64,000 nucleotides of DNA from Diphasiastrum complanatum (lineage: Eukaryota > Streptophyta > Lycopodiopsida > Lycopodiales > Lycopodiaceae). The first letter of the stretch is position 1. The number at the start of each line of letters is the position of its first letter. Below are positions 2,164-38,477 of this stretch, one piece after another. The position numbers and the translations under genes were made by a program. The stretch covers positions 51,983,698-52,047,697 of the forward strand of contig CM055097.1 of assembly GCA_029204225.1 (NCBI GenBank). The letters run 5' to 3'. The notes beneath the pieces were generated by a model. It worked only from the letters and a program-made list of their open reading frames with translations, ran no database searches and was not told the origin of the DNA.

Positions 2164-2175
2164 TGGTATCAGAGC
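2164..2175 (+). promoter_or_regulatory. Primer-binding site, element A
   Basis: TGGTATCAGAGC is complementary to the 3' end of plant initiator tRNA-Met, the usual Copia primer. It follows the LTR end directly and gives the element's orientation. Confidence 0.85.
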
Positions 2176-2597
2176 CAAGTACAAGAGCATAAGCCATTGA
2201 TCTAATGCAAATCCATTTTTAGCAAGTTTTGGTGCTAAAAACTAGTCTTGAGAGGGCAAGCTAGAATCTTGATTTTGGTGAGGAGATTTGATCCCAAACT
2301 TGGTAGGGGTCCAAATCCTTACTGTCCACATGTGTGGGCACCTCTGAACCTGCATTTAATGCATGGTATTCATTTGATCCAAAAAAATTCAATTTGTGAG
2401 CTATTGGTGTAATTTTGTGGAGATCCTAGAATAATCTACCAAGATCATTTGCCATTGATTAGATTTGAATTTGTTTCATGGAATCTAATTAATCTAGGCT
2501 GAGTTCAAGTCCTATTAAGGTTAAAACAGGTCTTAAAAGTACACCAAGAAGGAAGAAAGAGATTAAGTCATTTTTTTTGTCCAAAAATAGCCAAATT

Positions 2598-2950
2598 TTG
2601 CAAGATTTGATTGTAAGTAGATTTCACATCATCTTATCTTCATTCCAACTTTGTGAGGGAGTGTTAGAACTGAGATTATAAGTCCATTTTTTGGATTAGA
2701 AATCTTATTTGAGTGAAAAACTACAAGAGGAGAGACCTTAGTGAGTTTCTAGAGACAATCAAATCCATTTCTTGGCAAGATTTGTTTGAAAGTAGTTTTC
2801 ACTTCATCTTATCTTCATTCCCAGCTTTGTGAGGGAGTGATAGAACTGTGATTATAAGTCCATTTGTTGGATTAGAAATCAAATTTGAGTGAAACACTAC
2901 AAGTGTGAGACCTTTGTGAGTTTCAAGTCAATCAAATCTATTTCTTGTTT
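2598..2950 (+). repeat. Tandem duplication in the element A leader
   Basis: A segment of about 177 bp occurs twice between the primer site and gag. GCAAGATTTG, TTTGTGAGGGAGTG and TAGAACTG all recur in the same order with moderate divergence. The copies differ by scattered substitutions and small indels, so the duplication predates most decay of the element. Confidence 0.8.
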
Positions 2951-2968
2951 GTAGAAGTCACTAGTAAG

Positions 2969-3622
2969 ATGGCATCTGCTGGAGCATACCTTGTAGAAAC
3001 TAGTGAGAGGTTGAATTCTACAAATTATGCTATTTGGAAGGTTAGAATGGAGTCACTATTGGTGCTCCAAGACCTTTATGAGTTCTTGATTGAAGATGAA
3101 GATGAACCTCTAGGTGCACATGAGTTAGCTAGATACAAGAAGAGATCTAGGCTTGCACTTCATTGTGTGAAGATGAATGTGAGCAATGATTTGTTGAGAG
3201 AAGTATCAACTTGTACTAATGCTAAAGAGGCTTGGGAGTCTTTAAAATCAATCTATGAGTCTAGCAACACTTCTAGAGTTCTTATGCTTAGAAATCAAAT
3301 TTTGCAAAGCATGAGGAGAAGTGAGGAGAGTGCACAAGATTATGTACTCAGAATCAAGTCTCTAAATAGGGAGTTGGCTTCCATTGGAGAGAAGATTCAT
3401 GATGGAGAGCTTGTACAGATTGTCCTTAATGGTCTAGGAGATGAATTTGCAAATTTGGTCCAAAGTTTTGCCATCCAAGACGCTTTGCCAACTATAGAAA
3501 AACTTCACAGTGTATTAGTGGCTGAAGAGTGTAGGATGCTCCATGCAAAATCTAGGATGAGTTCCTTGTCTTTGCAGGATGGTGATGAGAAAGCCAATTT
3601 CTCATTCAAGGGCAAAAAGAAG
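2969..3622 (+). pseudogene. Copia element A gag, 3'-truncated
   Basis: This is the capsid (Gag, UBN2/DUF4219-type) part of a Copia polyprotein. The start ATG at 2969 is chosen because MASAGAYLVETSERL aligns with the MATNGGYMLESNDRL start of the intact element at 33879. The line TNYAIWKVRMESLL and the later LVQIVLNGLGDEF are shared family positions. The frame is open for about 218 residues and then runs into sequence that belongs to an oppositely oriented Copia copy at about 3622. The zinc knuckle, protease and everything downstream are missing. The last 20 or so residues of the open frame are antisense of the other element and are not real Gag. Confidence 0.85.
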
Positions 3623-5722
3623 ACCATGATCCCTTTGATAGAATTAGGATCATCTCTTTTCCTTGTTTCCAAGGGTACATGAACAAAACAAGCACATCCA
3701 AAAACTCTAAGGTGATCAACCTTAAGTTTCTTCTTAAACAAGACTTCATATGGTGATCTTCCTGCAAGCGCATTATGAGGTAATCTATTGCACAAATAGT
3801 TTGCACAATTAATTGCTTCTCCCCAATATTCAATAGGCAAAGAAGCTTCAACTCGGATTGCTTTAGCACATTCACATAGAGATCAATTTTTTCTTTCAAC
3901 AACTCCATTTTGAGATGGAGAATAAGCACAAGAAAACTCTCTCTTTATCCCTTCACTCTCACAATAATCATAGAACTTGTTGGAGATGTATTCACCTTCT
4001 CCGTCACATCTTAAAGCTTTAACTTTGAAAGAAAAGTGTTTCTCAACATAAGCTTTGAAGACAAAGAAGTGATCAAATACCGTAGCTTTTGAAGAAAGTA
4101 GATACAACCAAGTATATCTTGTAAAATCATCAATGAAGGTGACAAAACAAGTTGCACCACCAATACTTTTAGAAGAAGAAAAATGAACATCCAAGTGAAT
4201 TAGTTCCAAAGGATGAGTAGTCTTAATAAAAGACTTTTGATATGGCTTTCTATGTGATTTTGCAATAGCACAAGCCTCAAAGGCTTGATATCCTTGGAAA
4301 GTGATCTTGGAAGGCCAATAGCCTTATCATTCTTGATCATAGAAAACAAAGACTTAAAGTTAGGATGCTCCAACCTTCTATGCCATAACTCCTCCTTAGA
4401 CAAAAGAGCAACTTCACAAAAGTTTGCATTCTCATAAGAATTCAACTTGAAGATTCCACCATATCTAGATCCATTAGCTAGGATCTCATTATTTTTCTTG
4501 ATAAAGCAAGTATTGGAATTGAATTTTACATCACAACCACTAGTAAGCAACTTTCCAACACTAATCAAGTTCTTTGTAAGCGTAGGAACAAAAAGAACAT
4601 TGAAAAGTGATAGAACTTTAGAAGAAGAAAGTTTCAATGGAATGTTGCGGATACCTTCAATAGAGCACTCATGATCATTTGCAGTATAAATAGATCTTTT
4701 GAGTCCTTTATAAGGTACAATAGAGTCAAAAAGACTCCTTTGAACAGCACATATGTGAAGAGGCTCCACTATCGATGTACCAAGCTTCATCTTTCTTGAA
4801 GAATGATGAAGAAAAGCTTAACACCATGAGTGATCCTTCTCCATCACTTGCAATAAAATCTTCTTCTTTCTCATTAGAGAGATTTGCTTGTTTGAGTTGG
4901 TTTTTTTTTTTGAAGCAATTAGAGGCATAGTGCCCCTTCTTGCCACAAAAGAAACACTTGACTTTCTTCTTCTTGGTCTTTGAAGTAGAAGGATGAGATG
5001 AGTCATCCTCTTCACCATCTTTGTCTCTTTCCTTGCCTTTGTCTTTGTTGAAAGCTTGAGAAAACTGGTTCTTGCCCCTTCCTTTATGCTTATCCTTGAC
5101 AAAGAGAGCTTTGTCACTTCCAATATGCTCGAGTTTGTTCATCCTAGACAGTTTGTAACTTTGCCTAGCTTCTTCAAAGATGAGAATTCCTTGAAGAGTT
5201 TCCAGATTGGGCAACTCCTCCTTCATGGCAAAGGATTGAACAAGATTATCATAGTCATCCATTTAGAATGACTTGTACTAGATCATCTTGATTGATTGTA
5301 ACACCAACACAAGCAAGCTCTCTATGAAGATCTTTTACTCTCAAAACAAATTTGATGCACTCTCCTCACTTCCTTGAAAACTTTGAAAATTCTGATTTCT
5401 AAGACTGAGTATTCTAGAAGTGTTCTTAGCTTCATAGATGGACTTAAGTGCATCCCAAGCATCTTCAACAGTGGTGCAAGATCCTATTTCTCTTAGAATC
5501 TCATTAGAGACATTCATCTTAATGAAATGTAAAGCCATTCTAGCTCTCTTCTTGTACTTTGGTATTTCAAACTGTGCCACGAGGCTCCTCCTCAATACCA
5601 AGTACTATGTCTATATCATCTTGGAGTATCAAAATAGACTCCATCCTTACCTTCCATATTGAGTAATTAGAGGTACTTAGTCTTTCACTTGCTTCTAGGA
5701 GATATCCTCCCACAGATGCCAT
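3622..5722 (-). pseudogene. Copia element B gag-protease-integrase relic
   Basis: This is a minus-strand Copia polyprotein broken by frameshifts. In order from 5722: a Gag start (MASVGGYLLEASERL), Gag body, a CCHC zinc knuckle (CFFCGKKGHYASNC), the protease active site (WYIDSGASSHM), a pre-integrase domain (LWHRRLEHPNF), the integrase core (FVTFIDDFTRYTWLYLL, then QNGVVERKN) and the post-core segment with LCNRLPHNALAGRSPYEVLF. It stops at about 3622, inside the segment where the intact element reads KGIFVGYS, and meets element A head-on. RT, RNase H and 3' LTR are absent. It belongs to the same broad family as elements A and F. No LTR was identified in 5723-5990. Confidence 0.88.
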
Positions 5723-6008
5723 ATTGTGAAGACTTCTTTGTTATTGGACAATTATATGTTTGAGCTTGTTTCAATCAGACTTACTGTTGTCACTCTCTTT
5801 CACTGTAGGTATTTTCAAGGATGTGCTACTTTCCTATGTGAAAAACTTGCAACTATATTTGAGATAGATCTCAAATATTTCACAAAACAAGATTTTCTAT
5901 ATTAGTCTCTCAAAATGGATTGAGGCACTTACACAAGTTTGAATTCTACTTCTGGCACGTGTTAGATGCTTCCAAAGAAAATACTAATGATTCACATAAG
6001 GCTCAAAG

Positions 6009-7139
6009 GTGTTTAATAACATCAAACTTTGTCTTGATCTTCAGTTTCAATGGTATAGAAAGAAAGACAAAGCACTATGTTCCATAGGCTTCAAACCTCT
6101 ATTTGCTGAATCAAATATCTATATCAAACATGTCCAAAATGAAATAGTCATTTTAAATGTTTATGTTGATGACACGCTTATCTTCTCAAGAAGAGATAAG
6201 TTGATTTCAGATGTCAAAAGAGACACTTATGAAATATTTGAGATCGCTGACCTAGGAGAAGCTAAAATCTATCTAGGCTTGCAGATTGTGAGAGACTTTG
6301 AATGTGATAAGTTGTATCTTCACCAACAAAAGTACACTCAAAAGATCATTGAAGAATTCAACATGCTCGAATGCAAAGGTGTACATACTCCCATGATACC
6401 TGGAACAATACTGCGTAAGGCAAATTGTCCGCAGACTCTCGAGGAAGAGGAACGAATGGCCAAAACACCCTATCGTAGGCTGATTAGATCATTGTTATAT
6501 CTAGCAAACAACACCAGACCTAATATAGCGTTTGCAGTATACAGGTTGAGCCATTATAATCAGAACCCAGGATCATTGCATTGGAAGTTGGCAATGAGAG
6601 TACTACAATATCTCCAGAAAACGAAAGACTATGGACTGTGTTATTCGAAGGAAGCTGGATTTCACATTAAATCTTACTGTGACGCAATCTGGGCATTCAT
6701 GAAGGATGATAACAAAAGTATTTCAGGAGGTTGTACTCTAGCATCTGGTGCAGCCATACTCTGAATAAGCAAGAAGCAAATAGCAATAGCTCAATCTTCC
6801 TGTGAAGTGGAATATGTAGCAGCAGCCAAGATGGCAAACGAGCTGATCTGGATCAAACAAATGTTGGAAGAATTTGATGAATCTATTTTTGAACCTTACG
6901 TCTTGTTAATTGGTAACACTTTAACAATCTATCTTACGAAAGATCCTGTATTTCACTAAAAAACGAAGCACATAGCTATCAAAAATCATGTGATTCGGGA
7001 CTCAGTCGAGAAGAAGATACTGAAGACAGTCTTCATACCCACAGAGGAAATGACAGCTGATATCTTTACGAAACCATTCAGTAAGGCTTTGTTCGAGAAG
7101 CAACGAAGAAGATTGGGATTCATCCAACTGCCACTTTGA
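6009..7139 (+). pseudogene. Copia element C, RT C-terminal part and RNase H
   Basis: This is the 3' end of a different Copia family. The RT active site is VYVDDTLIFSRRD, followed by the usual DLGEAKIYLGLQI block, the VHTPMIPG connection, and RNase H blocks RPNIAFAVYRLS, YCDAIWAF, QSSCEVEYVAAA and ADIFTKPFSKA. Two in-frame stops disable it: one at 6762, where related elements have Trp before SKKQ, and one at about 6957 in the FH.KTKHI block. The 5' end (gag through the RT fingers) is missing. The frame ends at 7139, and a purine-rich stretch GAGAGGAAG then abuts the 3' LTR. Confidence 0.9.
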
Positions 7140-8678: not shown

Positions 8679-9432
8679 TCAAATAGAGACGCTGTTAGGA
8701 ATACCCCGACTGGTTACACCAGGACCTGAACGGGGTAAGAGCAGCTGGTAGGGATGAACGCCTGCGCCATATCTGTTTTTCAGTTTAGGATTTTTGTTTC
8801 TTTCATTAATTGTGGTCTCTATAGCCTGGAGTTGGGCTAGGAATTTATCTGATGCTTCCTTGACGTTTTTGTCGCAGATCCAGGCAGCGTCTCCTCTGTG
8901 TCCCAAGTATTCCTCATCTTGTGAGTGAGTCGAAAGAGTTTCCAGCACAGCCATCACGGTTGTTGCTTGAAGTTTGCTGGGAATCGTTGCAAGGTAGAAG
9001 CGTTGTGGGTCGTGTACAAAATGATTGAATTCTGGGTCGTTCTCATTAGGAATGTGCTGTCGGGTTAAACATGGAAGATATGGAATATATCCTGCATGAA
9101 GAAATTGCCCAAAATTCACAGCAGCATGTTGTCCTGACACCACCCATATCATGATCGTTAGAATCTCAGTTAAATCGTCAACATTTCGGAGCTTGGGCCA
9201 CCATGGCTCCTCGGCTTTGTCGGCATGACCCTTGGTTCGTATTTCTGTCCACCATTGCTGCAATTCGCTGTCGTTATTGATAGCATCCGGATGAGTATAA
9301 TAGATTGACAAGTAATCTTTCACCCAAGATTTGATGGCAGTCCATATGAGTAATCCATCTGCTGCATAAGGATAGTCTTCAATCACTAGCCTTACGCCAG
9401 ATGGGTCACTTTGATCTTCTAAAGCCATCCCC
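8679..9432 (-). CDS. Lipoxygenase exon 9 (aa 678-928): catalytic C-terminus
   Basis: After acceptor TTGTACACAG the exon reads [20 protein letters not shown], then [15 protein letters not shown] and [12 protein letters not shown] with iron ligands His780 and Asn784. It ends GIPNSVSI, whose carboxyl-terminal Ile928 is the last iron ligand. The stop is at 8679-8681. The open frame 5' of 9432 is intron. Confidence 0.96.
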
Positions 9433-9644
9433 CTGTGTACAAACCCAAACTGAAATGAATGCTCTACGAAAGTTGTTTGCAAACTTCAAAGACACGTCTG
9501 TCCTAATTACTTCTCCTCAGGTCATTTGTAAAATTTTGATGCTTGTAAGAACGCTCCCAAATCAGCTTGGAAGAGAAGCATTTGTACAATTTAACCGCTT
9601 TTTTTGCCTCTCACCTCACAGAATACACGACTCGTCTTGTGATT

Positions 9645-25110: not shown

Positions 25111-25174
25111 GGCTTTGATAACTAGATTGATTGATAACTAGGTCTTGGTGACTTGACTCTTGCTTTTCTACACT

Positions 25175-25318
25175 GTTAGAAATCCATAAATCATAATATG
25201 GATGGACAGACTAGGATTCGAACCCAGGACCTCCCTCATACCGGATGGGATGCTCTACCACTGAGCTATCTGCCCTGTGTGATAGTTCTCTCTAGAGTGT
25301 GGATTGATATTTCAACAC
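25175..25318 (-). repeat. TRIM 3' LTR (144 bp)
   Basis: Its ends are TGTTAGAAATCC and GATATTTCAACA on the plus strand. It is about 90% similar to the other copy by eye, with two small indels. Confidence 0.88.
25205..25276 (-). other. tRNA-like sequence in the TRIM 3' LTR
   Basis: The 72-nt sequence folds as a cloverleaf. The acceptor stem GGGCAGA/TCTGTCC has seven pairs including one G-U. The D arm is GCTC...GAGC. The T arm is CTGGG-TTCGAAT-CCTAG. The anticodon stem has one mismatch and the loop TCCGGTA has C instead of U at position 33, with CGG in the anticodon place. Box A (TAGCTCAGTGG) and box B (GGTTCGAATCC) match the pol III consensus. It is probably not a working tRNA but could drive pol III transcription. 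Confidence 0.75.
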
Positions 25319-25330
25319 CCCTCCTCAAGC
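25319..25330 (-). promoter_or_regulatory. TRIM polypurine tract
   Basis: The minus strand reads CTTGAGGAGGGG immediately before TGTTGAAATATC, the start of the 3' LTR. This is the expected plus-strand primer. Confidence 0.75.
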
Positions 25331-25421
25331 CACACTTGGTTAGGGTCCTAGCTGTCACCTGCCCCACAACTTGGGCCACCTAACCATGGCTTTGACACCA
25401 TGAACTGTTAGCTCTAACTTG

Positions 25422-25434
25422 GCTCTGATACCAT
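25422..25434 (-). promoter_or_regulatory. TRIM primer-binding site
   Basis: TGGTATCAGAGCC on the minus strand is complementary to the initiator tRNA-Met 3' end and touches the LTR. A degenerate second copy of this motif plus TGTTAG lies at about 25388-25412. Confidence 0.85.
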
Positions 25435-25576
25435 GTTAGAAATCTATAAATCATAATATGGATGGACAAACTAGGATTCGAACCCAAGACCTCCCTCATA
25501 CCGGATAAGATGCTCTACCACTGAGCTCTGTCCTGTTTGATAGTTCTCTCTAGAGTGTGGATTGATATTCCAACAG
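25435..25576 (-). repeat. TRIM 5' LTR (142 bp)
   Basis: It is bounded by TGTTAGAAATC and GATATTCCAACA on the plus strand. It has the same internal order as the other copy. Confidence 0.88.
25465..25534 (-). other. tRNA-like sequence in the TRIM 5' LTR
   Basis: The 70-nt version has acceptor ends GGACAGA and TTTGTCC, D arm GCTC...GAGC, and an intact box B GGTTCGAATCC. It lacks the two bases between acceptor and D arm (TA at positions 8-9), so box A is weakened. Confidence 0.7.
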
Positions 25577-32616: not shown

Positions 32617-33269
32617 TGTGAAAAATTGTCAACTAGTAGTATTTTCCTAACTTGAGATTTTGTAGGCCTATGGCCAAATAAAAGTTAGAGATAGGTTCAT
32701 ACATGTATGTAGAGGCCCAAAGTATGTGTACACTACTTTTGAGGTCACATTAATTAGAGGAGGTCGAGTGTGGAGCTCTTCTATTGGCTCATAATTTGGT
32801 GCATTCCTATTTGACCAAATTTCTAGGTAGATGGGTGAATCCTATTGGACCCCAATTTTAGCCTATCATAAGACAAGTGGCCAAGAGGCACTATGGCTGC
32901 TATAAATAGCCATCTCCACGAGTATGTACACATCTCATTTTCATTCTATTGAATGAATGTTATGCTCTTTGAAGATCCATCTTCTTCTCTCTCACTTTTT
33001 TGTTCATATCTTGCATTCTAGCCACTAGAATTGTGATTTCTTTGTTGCTATGGCTTCACACGTGTGAAATGCAGGTTGTAGGCTCTGAAGTACGGACAGG
33101 GACAGCAAGTTTCTGTTTGTGGAAGCTTATGATCAGATCTTGATGTTTAGTTGATGTTTAGTATGCTTAACATCACAATTTCTATCATTTTTTCAATCTA
33201 GATGTGCATAACTTCCATGGCCAAGATCTTTATGAAACTTTAGCATCTTTTGGATCTGAGTTTTTCACA
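32617..33269 (+). repeat. 5' LTR of element F
   Basis: It starts TGTGAAAAA and ends TTTTTCACA, a 9-bp terminal inverted pair. A TATA-type CTATAAATAG occurs at about 32900, followed by the probable R region and an ACACGTGTGA palindrome at about 33058. Confidence 0.97.
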
Positions 33270-33281
33270 TGGTATCAGAGC
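33270..33281 (+). promoter_or_regulatory. Primer-binding site of element F
   Basis: TGGTATCAGAGC, complementary to initiator tRNA-Met, touches the LTR end. Confidence 0.95.
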
Positions 33282-33878
33282 ATTAGGCGGCCAAATGTGC
33301 AGGTTTTGCCAGATTTAGAAGAGATTTGTGGGCGAGTTTGCTTTTGTAGCATTCCAATCAAGTTTCTAGCTAAAAATCTTGTTGATTTATGTGTAGAAAT
33401 TGGATCTTTGTGATCAAAACATCATTTGTATGCATTTCAATTGAAGTAGGGCGAATTCCCTCTGTACTTATCAGAATAAGGAGACAAAATTTGTTTTGGA
33501 AAGAGGGAGATGCAAGATCCAACAAGATCCTATTAGTTTTCCATTCTAGCATATAGTTTTTTGATTCAATTTCTTGCTTCTTCATGTCAAAAACTTCAAA
33601 ATTGATGTAACCCTCTGATTTTCAGTTTGCTGAATGATTCAAGAGTGTATTTCAATCTTAGGAGTGAGGGAAAAGCAAGTATATTGAGGTTTGGTCTTGG
33701 TTTGATCAAGAAATCATAAAACTAGTGGCTAAAATTGAGGAAAAAGTGAGGAAAAGAGAGAAAAAGTAAGGTTTTAGGTTCCAAATCTTTGTGATTTCTT
33801 CTTGTGTTTCATTTGTTGATTCAAGAGAGTGCTTAGTGCATTGGAACAGGTCAAAGATCAGAGATCAATCATTGCAAC
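33282..33878 (+). other. Untranslated leader of element F
   Basis: About 600 bases between primer site and gag ATG. The packaging and dimerisation signals would lie here; none can be named from sequence alone. Confidence 0.7.
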
Positions 33879-36800
33879 ATGGCTACAAATGGAGGCTACA
33901 TGTTGGAAAGCAATGATAGGCTTACCTCCCTCAACTATTCTACTTGGAAAGTAAGGATGGAGTCTTTGCTTGAGATGAATGAGTTGATGGATATTGTTGT
34001 AGGTGTGGAGGAGAGACCTTTGGCACCTCAAGAACAATTGAGGTATGACAAGAGGTCAAAGAAAGCCCTTCACATGATCAAGATGAATGTGACAAATGAG
34101 CTTATCAAAGAGGTTGGTAAGTGCACATCATCTAGTGAAGCTTGGGAAGCCTTGAAGAAGGTTTATGAATCCAAGTCTACTTCTAGAGTGTTGACTTTAA
34201 GAAGGCAAATCTTTTCTTGTATGCAAAAGAAGAGTGAGAGTGGACATGCTTTTGTTTTGAGAGTTAAAGCATTGAATGATGAGTTAGCATGCATTAATGA
34301 TGGCATAAATAATGAGGAGCTTGTTCAAGTGATTCTCAATGGCTTGTTGGATGATCATGCTAATCTTGTTCAAAGTTATGCTATCCAAAAATGTTTACCA
34401 AGTGTTGGAGACTTGCAAGAGGTCTTGTTGGCTGAAGAATTCAGGTTGCAAGCAAGAGTGGGAGCATCTTCTACATCTCAAGGAGGAGAAGAGGAGGCAA
34501 TGTTCTCTAAAGGCAAGTTCAAGGGCAAAGGTAAAAGCAATTGGTCTAAAGGGCAAGACCAAGGTGAGCACTCTACTTTTGGCAAAAAGAAGGATAGATC
34601 TAAGCTAAAATGTTTCTATTGTGGAGTCAAAGGGCATTTTGCTAGTGATTGTTTTAAGAAAAAGAGGGATCAAGGGGAAAAGCAAACCAATCTAACTATT
34701 GATGAGGGTGGGGATGAGCTTCTTTCAAATGATGCTTTTGTTATGTCATCTTGCTTGTTGGCTAATCATGGAGACATTGATCCTTGGTGGATTGATAGTG
34801 GAGCCACTTCTCATATGACATATCATAAAGAGTATTTTTCATCTTTAATGGCATTTGATGGTGATAGGAAGGTAATCTATACCGCAAATGATGGTGAGTG
34901 TACAATCAAGGGGATTGGCACAATTCCTATTTCACTTTCTACAAATAGGAATATAGAATTGAAAGATGTTTTGCTCATTCCATCCATTACCAAGAACTTA
35001 CTTAGTGTAAGCCAAATGCTTGACAAAGGATTCAAAGTTGAGTTTGATGGTGATGCTTGCTTGATCAAAAAGGGGTGTAGTATCATTGCAAAAGGGAAAA
35101 GGCAAGGGAAATTGTTCAAGCTTGATGCATGTGTTGTTGCTAACCAAGTTGGATGCATGGCAAATGAACAAATGTCAATTCAAGAGGTATGGCATAAAAG
35201 GATGGGACATCTCAACTACAAGGCCTTGGAGGTAATAGCCAAAAAGGAGGTAGTAAGGGGACTTCCCAAGTCTCTTACTTGCTTGAATCATGTTTGTGAA
35301 GAATGTGCTTTGTCTAAATCACATAGATTGCCATATACTAGATCTATATCTAGATCTAAGATGCCTTTTTCTCTCTTGCATTCGGATATTCATGGTGTTA
35401 CTACAATTAGCAATGGAGGTGCTAAGATGTATGTAACTTTCATTGATGATTTTAGTAGATTTTGTTGGGTTTATCTACTAAAGAGCAAGGATGAGGTGTT
35501 TGATGTGTTTGTCAAGTTCAAAGTTGCTATTGAGACTCAATTTACAACCAAAATCAAATGCTTGAGGAGCGACAATGGTGGTGAATACATTTCTAACAAA
35601 TTCAAAGCCTTTTGCGATGAGCATGGGATCAAGAGGGAGTACACATGTCCAAGAACACCACAACAAAATGGAGTGGCCGAGAGGAAGAATAGAACCTTGT
35701 GTGAGAGTGCAAAGGCAATGAGATTGAATGCTAATCTTCCTAAACCTTTTTGGAGTGATGCTTTGTTGTGTGCAAATTTCCTATGCAATAGATGGCCAAG
35801 TGTTGTATTGGAAGGAAAAACCCCTTTTGAAGCTTTGTTTGGTATGAAGCCTAATGTCAAGTTTCTAAGAACTTTTGGATGCATTTGCTACTTCAACATT
35901 ACTCTTGATGATAGAACTAAGGAGGATCCATCTTCAAGAAAGGGCATTTTTGTTGGTTATAGTGAAGTAAGCAAAGCATATAGGATTTATGTTCCTTCAA
36001 TCAAGAAAGTGTTCACAAGTAGGGATGTCATTTTTGATGAAAGTAACATTCCAAAAGTTGTTTCAAGTGATGATGGTGTTGTTGCAACTAATGTGCTTGA
36101 TGACAATGGAGTTGATGACACATTGGATGTGGATGTTGAAGAAGCCTCTTCAAGTCAAATTCCAAGGAGAACTCCAAGGCATAAAGTGAAACCCTCAAGG
36201 CTCACTTATGATAGCAAAGGTAAGCAAGTGGTGGATGGATCCAACTATGCTTTCCTAACTTCTTTTGATGTACCTTCATGTGTAGATGAAGCAAGGCAAA
36301 AAGAGGAATGGATCCAAGCAATGGATCTTGAGTTTGAAGCACTTATGAAGAACAACACATGGAGATTGGTGGAGCTTCCAAAGGGCAAAAGTGCAATTGG
36401 ATGCAAATGGATCTTCAAGGTAAAGACAAATCAAGATGGATCTATCAACAAGTTGAAGGCAAGGTTGGTGGCTAAAGGTTATGCTCAAGAGCATGGCATT
36501 GACTATGAGGAAACCTTTGCACCCGTGGCAAAGATGGTGAGCATAAGAGTAATCATTTCCCTTGCAACTCTTTATGGATGGGATCTTTGGCAATTAGACA
36601 TTTCTAATGCTTTCTTGAATGGTGATCTTGAAGAGGAAGTCTACATGGAGCAACCCGAGAGCTATGTTTCTCATAGCAAGCCTAATCATGTGTGTTTTCT
36701 ACAAAAAAGTTTGTATGGTCTTAAGCAAGCACCAAGGAGTTGGTATGCTAGGCTTAACTCTTTTCTACTTTCTCAAAACTTCACTATGAGTGAGTATGAT

Positions 36801-37829
36801 CATTCACTTTACTTTAGAATTAGTGCTAATGATGTTACAATCCTTCTAATTTATGTGGATGACATTATTTTAAGTGGAGGGAACAAGGAAGATATAGAAG
36901 ATATCAAGAAAGCACTAAAAAAGGAATTTGAAGTGCATGATCTTGGTCTTTTGAGCTATATCTTAGGAATAGAAGTAATTAGAACTTCTCAAATCACTTT
37001 TATTTCACAAGAGAAGTATGCTATTTCTATTCTCAATAGATTTCATATGGTAGATGCAAATCCTATTGATACACCTATGGAATCACATGTAAAGCTAACT
37101 ATAAGAGGTAATGAAAGATCCTTCGAGGACATTACTCTCTATAGGAAGCTAATAGGTTCTCTTATATATCTAACCATCACAAGACCTGATTTATCTTATT
37201 GTGTTGGTAGATTAAGCCAATTCATGCAAGATCCTAGCATAGAACATTGGAAACTAGGAAAGAGGATCTTGAGATACATCTCGGGAACAAAAGATTTTGG
37301 CATTGTTTATAGAGGCTCATCACCTAACTTATTTGGTTTTTCAGATTCAGATTTTGCAGGAGACCTTATGGATAGAAAATCCATAAATGCACATGCTATT
37401 TTCATAGGTGATGGAGCTATCTCATGGATGTCGAAGAAACAAGCAACTATATCACTTTCTTCTAGTGAGGCCGAGTACAAAGCTTTGACATCATGCACAA
37501 AGGAGATGGTGTGGATCAAGAGGATGATTATGGAGCTTCATTTGCTGGATTTTTCAGAGAGTCCAATCATCTTTTGTGACAACCTTTCAGCCCAAAGTCT
37601 AGCAAGCAATCCGGTTTTCCATGCAAGGAGCAAACATATCGAGGTGGCTTACCATTTTGTGAGAGAACAAGTGTTGGCAAAAGAGATCAAGCTTGAACAT
37701 GTCCCATCAAAGGAATGTGTGGCTGATATCTTTACCAAAGCATTGGGAAAGGACTTATTTTTCAAGCATAGAACAAGTCTTGGTGTACTTTCTAAATCTA
37801 TGCTAAAACTAGTTGAAGAGGGAGTGTGA
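33879..37829 (+). CDS. Copia gag-pol polyprotein, intact (1316 aa)
   Basis: Domains in order: Gag (UBN2-type, 1-200); CCHC zinc knuckle CFYCGVKGHFASDC starting at Cys245; aspartic protease DSGATSHM with Asp306; pre-integrase WHKRMGHLNY at about 438; integrase with the D,D35E triad at Asp503, Asp565 (SDNGGEY) and Glu601 (NGVAERKN); RT from TFAPVAKM and WQLDISNAFLNGDLEEEVYM to the YVDD site at Asp994-Asp995; RNase H with DSDFAGDL, SSSEAEYKAL, CDNLSAQS and HARSKHIE; end ADIFTKALGKD. There is no frameshift or stop, so proteins are probably made as one precursor and cut by its own protease. The TGA stop overlaps the first bases of the 3' LTR. The start ATG follows the leader and begins the conserved Gag text. 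Confidence 0.97.
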   Translation: MATNGGYMLESNDRLTSLNYSTWKVRMESLLEMNELMDIVVGVEERPLAPQEQLRYDKRSKKALHMIKMNVTNELIKEVGKCTSSSEAWEALKKVYESKSTSRVLTLRRQIFSCMQKKSESGHAFVLRVKALNDELACINDGINNEELVQVILNGLLDDHANLVQSYAIQKCLPSVGDLQEVLLAEEFRLQARVGASSTSQGGEEEAMFSKGKFKGKGKSNWSKGQDQGEHSTFGKKKDRSKLKCFYCGVKGHFASDCFKKKRDQGEKQTNLTIDEGGDELLSNDAFVMSSCLLANHGDIDPWWIDSGATSHMTYHKEYFSSLMAFDGDRKVIYTANDGECTIKGIGTIPISLSTNRNIELKDVLLIPSITKNLLSVSQMLDKGFKVEFDGDACLIKKGCSIIAKGKRQGKLFKLDACVVANQVGCMANEQMSIQEVWHKRMGHLNYKALEVIAKKEVVRGLPKSLTCLNHVCEECALSKSHRLPYTRSISRSKMPFSLLHSDIHGVTTISNGGAKMYVTFIDDFSRFCWVYLLKSKDEVFDVFVKFKVAIETQFTTKIKCLRSDNGGEYISNKFKAFCDEHGIKREYTCPRTPQQNGVAERKNRTLCESAKAMRLNANLPKPFWSDALLCANFLCNRWPSVVLEGKTPFEALFGMKPNVKFLRTFGCICYFNITLDDRTKEDPSSRKGIFVGYSEVSKAYRIYVPSIKKVFTSRDVIFDESNIPKVVSSDDGVVATNVLDDNGVDDTLDVDVEEASSSQIPRRTPRHKVKPSRLTYDSKGKQVVDGSNYAFLTSFDVPSCVDEARQKEEWIQAMDLEFEALMKNNTWRLVELPKGKSAIGCKWIFKVKTNQDGSINKLKARLVAKGYAQEHGIDYEETFAPVAKMVSIRVIISLATLYGWDLWQLDISNAFLNGDLEEEVYMEQPESYVSHSKPNHVCFLQKSLYGLKQAPRSWYARLNSFLLSQNFTMSEYDHSLYFRISANDVTILLIYVDDIILSGGNKEDIEDIKKALKKEFEVHDLGLLSYILGIEVIRTSQITFISQEKYAISILNRFHMVDANPIDTPMESHVKLTIRGNERSFEDITLYRKLIGSLIYLTITRPDLSYCVGRLSQFMQDPSIEHWKLGKRILRYISGTKDFGIVYRGSSPNLFGFSDSDFAGDLMDRKSINAHAIFIGDGAISWMSKKQATISLSSSEAEYKALTSCTKEMVWIKRMIMELHLLDFSESPIIFCDNLSAQSLASNPVFHARSKHIEVAYHFVREQVLAKEIKLEHVPSKECVADIFTKALGKDLFFKHRTSLGVLSKSMLKLVEEGV
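37814..37824 (+). promoter_or_regulatory. Polypurine tract of element F
   Basis: TGAAGAGGGAG directly precedes the 3' LTR and overlaps the last codons of RNase H (EEGV). Confidence 0.8.
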
Positions 37830-38477
37830 AAAATTGTCAACTAGTAGTATTTTCCTAACTTGAGATTTTGTAGGCCTATGGCCAAATAAAAGTTAGAGAT
37901 AGGTTCATACATGTATGTAGAGGCCCAAAGTATGTGTACACTACTTTTGAGGTCACATTAATTAGAGGAGGTCGAGTGTGGAGCTCTTCTATTGGCTCAT
38001 AATTTGGTGCATTCCTATTTGACCAAATTTCTAGGTAGATGGGTGAATCCTATTGGACCCCAATTTTAGCCTATCATAAGACAAGTGGCCAAGAGGCACT
38101 ATGGCTGCTATAAATAGCCATCTCCACGAGTATGTACACATCTCATTTTCATTCTATTGAATGAATGTTATGCTCTTTGAAGATCCATCTTCTTCTCTCT
38201 CACTTTTTTGTTCATATCTTGCATTCTAGCCACTAGAATTGTGATTTCTTTGTTGCTATGGCTTCACACGTGTGAAATGCAGGTTGTAGGCTCTGAAGTA
38301 CGGACAGGGACAGCAAGTTTCTGTTTGTGGAAGCTTATGATCAGATCTTGATGTTTAGTTGATGTTTAGTATGCTTAACATCACAATTTCTATCATTTTT
38401 TCAATCTAGATGTGCATAACTTCCATGGCCAAGATCTTTATGAAACTTTAGCATCTTTTGGATCTGAGTTTTTCACA
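37825..38477 (+). repeat. 3' LTR of element F
   Basis: 653 bp, the same text as 32617-33269, followed by GATAA. Confidence 0.97.

Follow-up and report, generated by a model that had tools for sequence, protein, structure and literature searches.

A TRIM family with tRNA-like sequence in its LTRs in Diphasiastrum complanatum, and a likely Copia helper indicated by hybrid insertions joined at the primer-binding site

The window, the whole stretch of DNA analysed here, comprises 64,000 nucleotides of Diphasiastrum complanatum (assembly GCA_029204225.1, contig CM055097.1, positions 51,983,698 to 52,047,697 of the forward strand). Its features are a TRIM, a fragment of a Copia LTR one base away from it, a full-length Copia, parts of another Copia and part of a lipoxygenase gene (Table 1). 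The family of the TRIM is called T throughout, and X is a Copia family found fused with T in hybrid insertions. An open frame of 1330 aa in the full-length Copia covers gag, integrase and RT domains, and the identical LTRs and target site duplication (TSD) of this element mark it as a very recent insertion. The best matches of the lipoxygenase fragment were lipoxygenases that we take to be of plant type, soybean-type seed enzymes among them.

Table 1. Positions of the features in the window (position 1 is its first letter; 5' and 3' LTR follow the sense order of the TRIM)
Feature	Position	Strand	Remarks
Whole TRIM (T), 402 bp	25174..25575	-	LTR ends TG...CA common to other genomic copies
5' LTR, 142 bp	25434..25575	-	
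3' LTR, 144 bp	25174..25317	-	
Core between LTRs, 116 bp	25318..25433	-	
Primer-binding site (PBS) TGGTATCAGAGC, plant initiator-Met type	25422..25433	-	Exact match
Polypurine tract (PPT) GAGGAGGGG, adjoins 3' LTR	25318..25326	-	
tRNA-like sequence, 3' LTR	25203..25275	-	Rfam RF00005 52.4 bits; ARAGORN tRNA-Thr ggt
Box A TAGCTCAGTGG, 3' LTR	25268-25258	-	Counted by hand from the sequence
Box B GGTTCGAATCC, 3' LTR	25224-25214	-	Counted by hand from the sequence
tRNA-like sequence, 5' LTR, 2 bases missing before box A	25463..25533	-	Rfam RF00005 33.1 bits
Last 49 bp of X LTR, opposite orientation, one base from TRIM	25124..25172	+	96% identity to LTR_X 403-451
Full-length Copia	32617-38477		653-bp LTRs 100% identical, PBS TGGTATCAGAGC, TSD GATAA
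Parts of another Copia	2164-6764		PBS region matches TRIM core over 17 nt
Lipoxygenase C-terminal part, open frame	8682-9485	-	

The first-pass annotation, made from the letters of the window, had described the TRIM as a miniature LTR element with a tRNA-like gene inside each LTR. The direct repeats and core were found with the lengths it gave, and the PBS and purine tract are present too; the element is real, but its span had been placed one base off. Rfam likewise recovered tRNA-like sequence in both LTRs in the sense direction. Boxes A and B, claimed for each repeat, are present in the LTRs, but box A of the window's 5' LTR is damaged: two bases are absent just before it, so this copy is itself impaired. 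ARAGORN called a tRNA in the 3' LTR only. Single-strand folding of the tRNA-like regions did not by itself stand out from that of shuffled sequences (z -1.08 and -0.39); the Rfam score is the basis of the tRNA call. The PBS is one that we take to be complementary to the initiator tRNA-Met. The window copy is old and damaged. Eight substitutions and a 2-base gap separate its two LTRs, whereas the median LTR divergence of 32 T copies (this one included) is 1.4%, and its flanks (GTATC and GTGTA) show no exact TSD. Identical 25-base flanks on both sides of T recur at 20.94 Mb of the same contig (C6), so the insertion sits in a duplicated stretch.

Searching the assembly (1.74 Gb; 23 contigs of 42 Mb or more) with the element gave at least 48 matches, counted from the 40 scored of 1234 first-look candidates. 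These further matches, and the LTR ends common to the fetched copies, mean that T is not a chance arrangement. Other copies are mostly 404 bp long, and most read GAGGGGGGG at the purine-tract position. For the TSD count, loci sharing their 15-base flanks were merged, so that duplicates with changed flanks may remain, and 10 of 64 entries that lacked two clean T-LTR ends were set aside (at least four of the 10 show only part of a locus that was counted elsewhere: L026, L036, L047 and L059). Both ends could be read in 54 insertions: 44 of these have an exact 5-bp TSD, 4 match at four of five bases and 6 do not match. By class, the TSD is exact in 35 of 45 simple elements and in all solo LTRs (2), T-only arrays (3) and hybrid arrays (4).

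The reading as an LTR element, proposed from the window copy, is thus borne out by the ends, PBS, purine tract and 5-bp TSDs common to other copies. The annotation had looked to further copies with shared ends, to exact 5-bp duplications and to solo LTRs, and all of these turned up. It had also named what would speak against it, namely copies that are tandem tRNA or SINE duplications lacking PBS, purine tract and shared ends, and the copies in the genome are not of that kind. Tandem duplication of a tRNA gene or SINE with no LTR biology would go with the recurrence of tRNA-like units at 260-bp spacing in the arrays, but it is refuted by the TSD and end data, with TG...CA ends, PBS, PPT and solo LTRs all present, and we give it practically no credence. 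A tRNA-headed SINE, which has no LTRs and inserts by target priming, was rejected on the same features (LTRs, PBS, PPT and 5-bp TSDs).

In 20 loci taken from a set of 40, 43 of the 44 LTRs passed the Rfam gathering score for tRNA. ARAGORN assigned Thr, Pro or Ile depending on the copy and the anticodon arm has 11 bases against 9 in the model (three alignments), which makes a working tRNA from T unlikely. Box A TAGCTCAGTGG is exact in 60 of 80 LTRs and box B GGTTCGAATCC in 70 of 80; motifs of Helenus type, TRGCY and YGG in box A and GGTTC in box B, were found. On these motifs and by analogy with Cassandra, the boxes probably serve as an internal pol III promoter, a role that the first-pass annotation had proposed and that the sequence makes plausible. 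T might instead be an ordinary pol II TRIM, mobilised by X in the same way, whose tRNA-like stretch is a passenger (an old SINE or captured tRNA gene) with no role in transcription. That reading, which we consider unlikely but worth keeping in mind, agrees with the variable ARAGORN calls, with the lack in 30 of 32 copies of a TTTT that could end a pol III RNA within the element (TTTT is also absent from 43% of shuffles), and with the finding that conservation is no higher in boxes A and B than in the remaining LTR (permutation p = 0.82), a comparison that cannot decide the matter because the family is too young. It sits less well with the passing of the Rfam gathering score by nearly all LTRs, with the exact boxes kept in most copies and with the conservation around the boxes described for Helenus families in the accessible text of PMC10886601.

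T is too short to encode mobility proteins. Examination of T copies with long spacing led to a locus (L071) in which a T-LTR is followed by X-internal sequence, a 452-bp X LTR, the T core and a second T-LTR, with GATAC on both sides. Six of seven separate pieces of this internal sequence matched Copia-type domains (gag, Pol_BBD, rve and RVT_2) and the seventh matched nothing; by these domains X is a Copia. In L086, a canonical X carries the PBS TGGTATCAGAGC, the PPT AAGGAGGG and the TSD ACATT, read from its flanks. Its 5' LTR begins TT for TG, and a T element with the TSD ATTCT is inserted in its gag region. The X LTRs in L083, L086 and L089 gave no Rfam match, and the 15 matches obtained in four loci lay in T-LTRs. 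Across the LTR/PBS junction T and X have 15 nt in common, 12 of them in the PBS and 3 at the LTR end; comparison of the two detected no similarity beyond these 15 nt, and T as a deletion derivative of X was rejected on that ground. The full-length Copia of the window was considered as a helper and rejected: apart from chance-level matches, it shares with the T core only the 12-nt PBS, and its LTR and both internal ends gave no match over 500 bases in 90 fetched loci.

Junctions between T and X were counted in genome-wide pattern scans (up to 3 mismatches). The border of a T-LTR with X-internal sequence gave 65 matches, 47 of which remained after removal of 18 X-type LTR ends (17 ending TGCTTTC and one ending GGTTTTCC), and the reversed control gave 0. 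With a 220-bp junction query, 40 of 45 among the matches listed spanned the junction whole or nearly so at 90-100%. The reciprocal border, X-LTR with T core, gave 55 matches (control 0), 21 of them with an X end, including two with an altered core start. The other 34 end in TTGATTTCCTACA (10), close to TTGATTTCCTACA (6), in TTGTTTTCCTTCA (4), T-like (7) or otherwise (7); with so many lacking an X end, PBS joins may extend to other Copia families or to T subfamilies.

At the PPT the result was different. Genome-wide, the pattern for an X-PPT followed by a T-LTR gave 24 matches, none with a T-LTR start: 23 read the start of a sibling LTR, TGTTGGAATRTAAATG, and one (on C10) is a single base closer to the sibling than to T. 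As far as this pattern reaches, we rejected an X family carrying a T-LTR at the 3' end. The pattern for a T-PPT followed by an X-LTR gave 0 matches genome-wide. Positive controls for the PPT patterns are partial, with some 36 X-PPT/X-LTR places listed and the T-PPT/T-LTR borders counted in the fetched loci. In those loci, where assignment was by nearest match and the choice of loci on T biases the table, the LTR before the PBS and the sequence after it were T and T in 62 cases, T and X in 4, X and T in 3 and X and X in 1, with one side unassigned in 6; across the PPT border they were T and T in 49, X and X in 4 and X and sibling in 2. Many junction places are duplicates of one insertion, and at least 14 distinct outer 5' insertion sites were found among the T-LTR/X places whose flanks were read. 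Two stretches, C5:37.5-38.0 Mb and C5:65.2-65.7 Mb, hold 15 T-LTR/X junction places, four of which have flanks that were read and are nearly alike, so that a segment holding one hybrid looks to have been amplified locally.

Both exchange types occur within 12 kb on one strand at 12 places, seven in the order T-x-X-t and five in the order X-t-T-x; one variant is found in two of the five, both on C4, which are probably duplicates, and a thirteenth paired place involves a third LTR type. Nine of 10 hybrids with both ends located have an exact TSD. These are six of the seven T-x-X-t places (C2 GATAC, C17 ATTAC, C4 TATCT, C6 ATATA, C14 ATTGC and C3 GGGGC), the one X-t-T-x place tested (C2 ATGCC) and two more hybrid arrays (C5 TAGAT and C3:51.36 GTGCT); the T-x-X-t place on C21 has none (TGCTT and CATGA). 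The hybrids on C4, C6, C14, C3:78.62, C21 and C2:58.59 were read at their ends only, and at C4 and C2:58.59 the LTR begins TC for TG.

T and X are also joined outside the PBS. In the 90 fetched loci, X gag meets the first base of a T-LTR (C3:51.36 Mb) or, with an 8-base overlap, base 74 of the T core (C5:40.59 Mb); LTR_X base 35 meets T core base 91 (L012), X pol meets the first base of the T core (L084) and a T-LTR meets LTR_X base 142 (L043/L048). Most of these joins either sit inside or next to an array with PBS joins as well, or have one end that is not clean; they may be deletions or other template jumps. At two further loci (L087 and L088), an X-like LTR fragment comes after T and is fused to the initial 85 bp of the T core, which run into a broken tRNA-like stretch.

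In LTR retrotransposition, plus-strand strong-stop DNA is primed at the PPT and spans an entire LTR together with a PBS templated by the tRNA primer; pairing at the PBS then carries it over to the minus-strand DNA, at its 3' end. We think it probable that T RNA is made by pol III and is packaged and reverse-transcribed in trans by X, with exchange of plus strands at the PBS and integration of the hybrids as units; from the junction sequences, X is the likely helper of T. The decayed tRNA gene in each T-LTR would provide boxes A and B as the internal promoter. T RNA would be packaged in trans in particles made by X, primed at the common PBS by the same tRNA as X and reverse-transcribed by X enzymes, and its DNA would be integrated with the 5-bp TSDs that are observed. 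If T and X RNAs were enclosed in one particle, the strong-stop DNA of one could land on the minus-strand PBS of the other, joining a T-LTR to X-internal sequence or an X-LTR to the T core. With both transfers in trans, the products would be the linear heterodimers T-x-X-t-T and X-t-T-x-X, integrated as units, and trans transfer within T alone would yield T-only arrays. The succession of reverse-transcription steps is our reconstruction from the junctions, orders and TSDs observed.

Trans transfer entails that LTRs switch partner at the PBS and that each PPT keeps its own LTR, which fits the asymmetry between the two borders, and the occurrence of both predicted orders supports the heterodimer model. 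Alternatively, the hybrids could come from recombination of DNA, with short homology joining copies or extrachromosomal circles of T and X and no reverse transcription in a shared particle. The 15 nt that T and X have in common lie exactly at the junction and would suffice for microhomology joining, some T/X joins elsewhere have overlaps of 1, 3 and 8 bases, and the solo LTRs show that LTR recombination does occur. The PPT/TGTT border also has short homology, however, and no exchange was found there in either direction; both heterodimer orders are present, and the hybrids whose two ends were located are units integrated as a whole, nearly all of them with exact outer TSDs. We therefore judge DNA recombination a rather improbable source of the hybrids. 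A stronger form of the shared-particle reading, in which a pol III transcript is regular cargo of a pol II Copia particle and whole LTRs are exchanged in trans with X, is put forward tentatively, as a proposal that could as readily fail as hold.

The likely Copia helper and the trans transfer at the PBS are the new part of this account, the Helenus type itself being already published. PBS-joined hybrids offer a route to a helper from sequence data, even where TRIM and helper have no LTR or coding sequence in common. We take the PBS/PPT asymmetry to be a trace, left in the genome, of plus-strand transfer from one template to another, and trans transfer offers a mechanism for tandem TRIM arrays. 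In T, the presence of a putative pol III RNA in Copia particles can be put to the test. If the proposed account is true, LTRs with a tRNA promoter have been moved ahead of Copia internal sequence at dozens of places, and T would become the first pol III-class TRIM whose helper had been recognised through hybrid products. For annotation, tRNA-bearing LTRs can inflate counts of tRNA genes.

The first-pass annotation knew of no described family of this type; one had in fact been published, since the accessible text of Kojima 2024 (PMC10886601) describes Helenus elements as TRIMs with tRNA-like sequence in their LTRs. By structure T is of the Helenus kind, set beside it here by description: it is a TRIM of less than 1000 bp with two LTRs, tRNA-derived sequence inside them, a PBS after the 5' LTR and a PPT before the 3' LTR. 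The 5-bp TSD given for plant Helenus is exact in most insertions of the T family, with the window copy lacking one. The only plant host named in that text is Selaginella moellendorffii (LTR 120 bp, core 85 bp), and its author states that pol III transcription of Helenus was not validated. Helenus helpers, Copia or Gypsy, were inferred there from PBS and internal similarity and from TSD length, whereas the helper of T is proposed from hybrid insertions with one Copia family. The literature searched, which left most subscription papers and Repbase outside (an entry for T may exist), gave no seed-plant case of Helenus type and no TRIM/Copia hybrid of the T/X kind, and the available part of a meeting report naming Helenus gives no plant case.

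Cassandra, as described in the accessible text of PMC7215508, resembles T in having small-RNA-gene sequence in the LTR, tandem LTR-core arrays and, in its published search pattern, the same string TGGTATCAGAGC after the LTR. Cassandra carries 5S RNA, whereas T carries a tRNA: in the window, the 20 loci and 4 further loci, Rfam placed tRNA only, and no 5S RNA, above the gathering score. The autonomous partners of Cassandra are called unknown in that text. The plant TRIMs and tandem TRIMs of Gao 2016 (PMC4717578) are like T in size, structure, tandem arrays and 5-bp TSDs, and the text available describes larger Copia-related elements for some flowering-plant TRIMs. Those putative helpers were found through LTR and internal similarity, which T and X do not have, and the word tRNA does not occur in the main text of that paper, whereas the LTRs of T contain tRNA-like sequence.

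Non-autonomous elements with an assigned autonomous partner include Dasheng, paired with RIRE2. Arrays and complexes have earlier been attributed to LTR recombination or template switching, in the accessible portions of PMC7215508 and PMC1950507. The Triticeae complexes of Sabot and Schulman 2007 (PMC1950507) involve the Squiq and Opie families with a switch between R regions, as set out in the part of the paper available, whereas in T and X two unrelated elements are joined at the PBS. RLG_Cereba and RLG_Quinta resemble T and X in that a non-autonomous element has been assigned to an autonomous partner; according to the accessible text of PMC11302176, those two share LTR, PBS and PPT motifs, whereas T and X share the PBS junction only.
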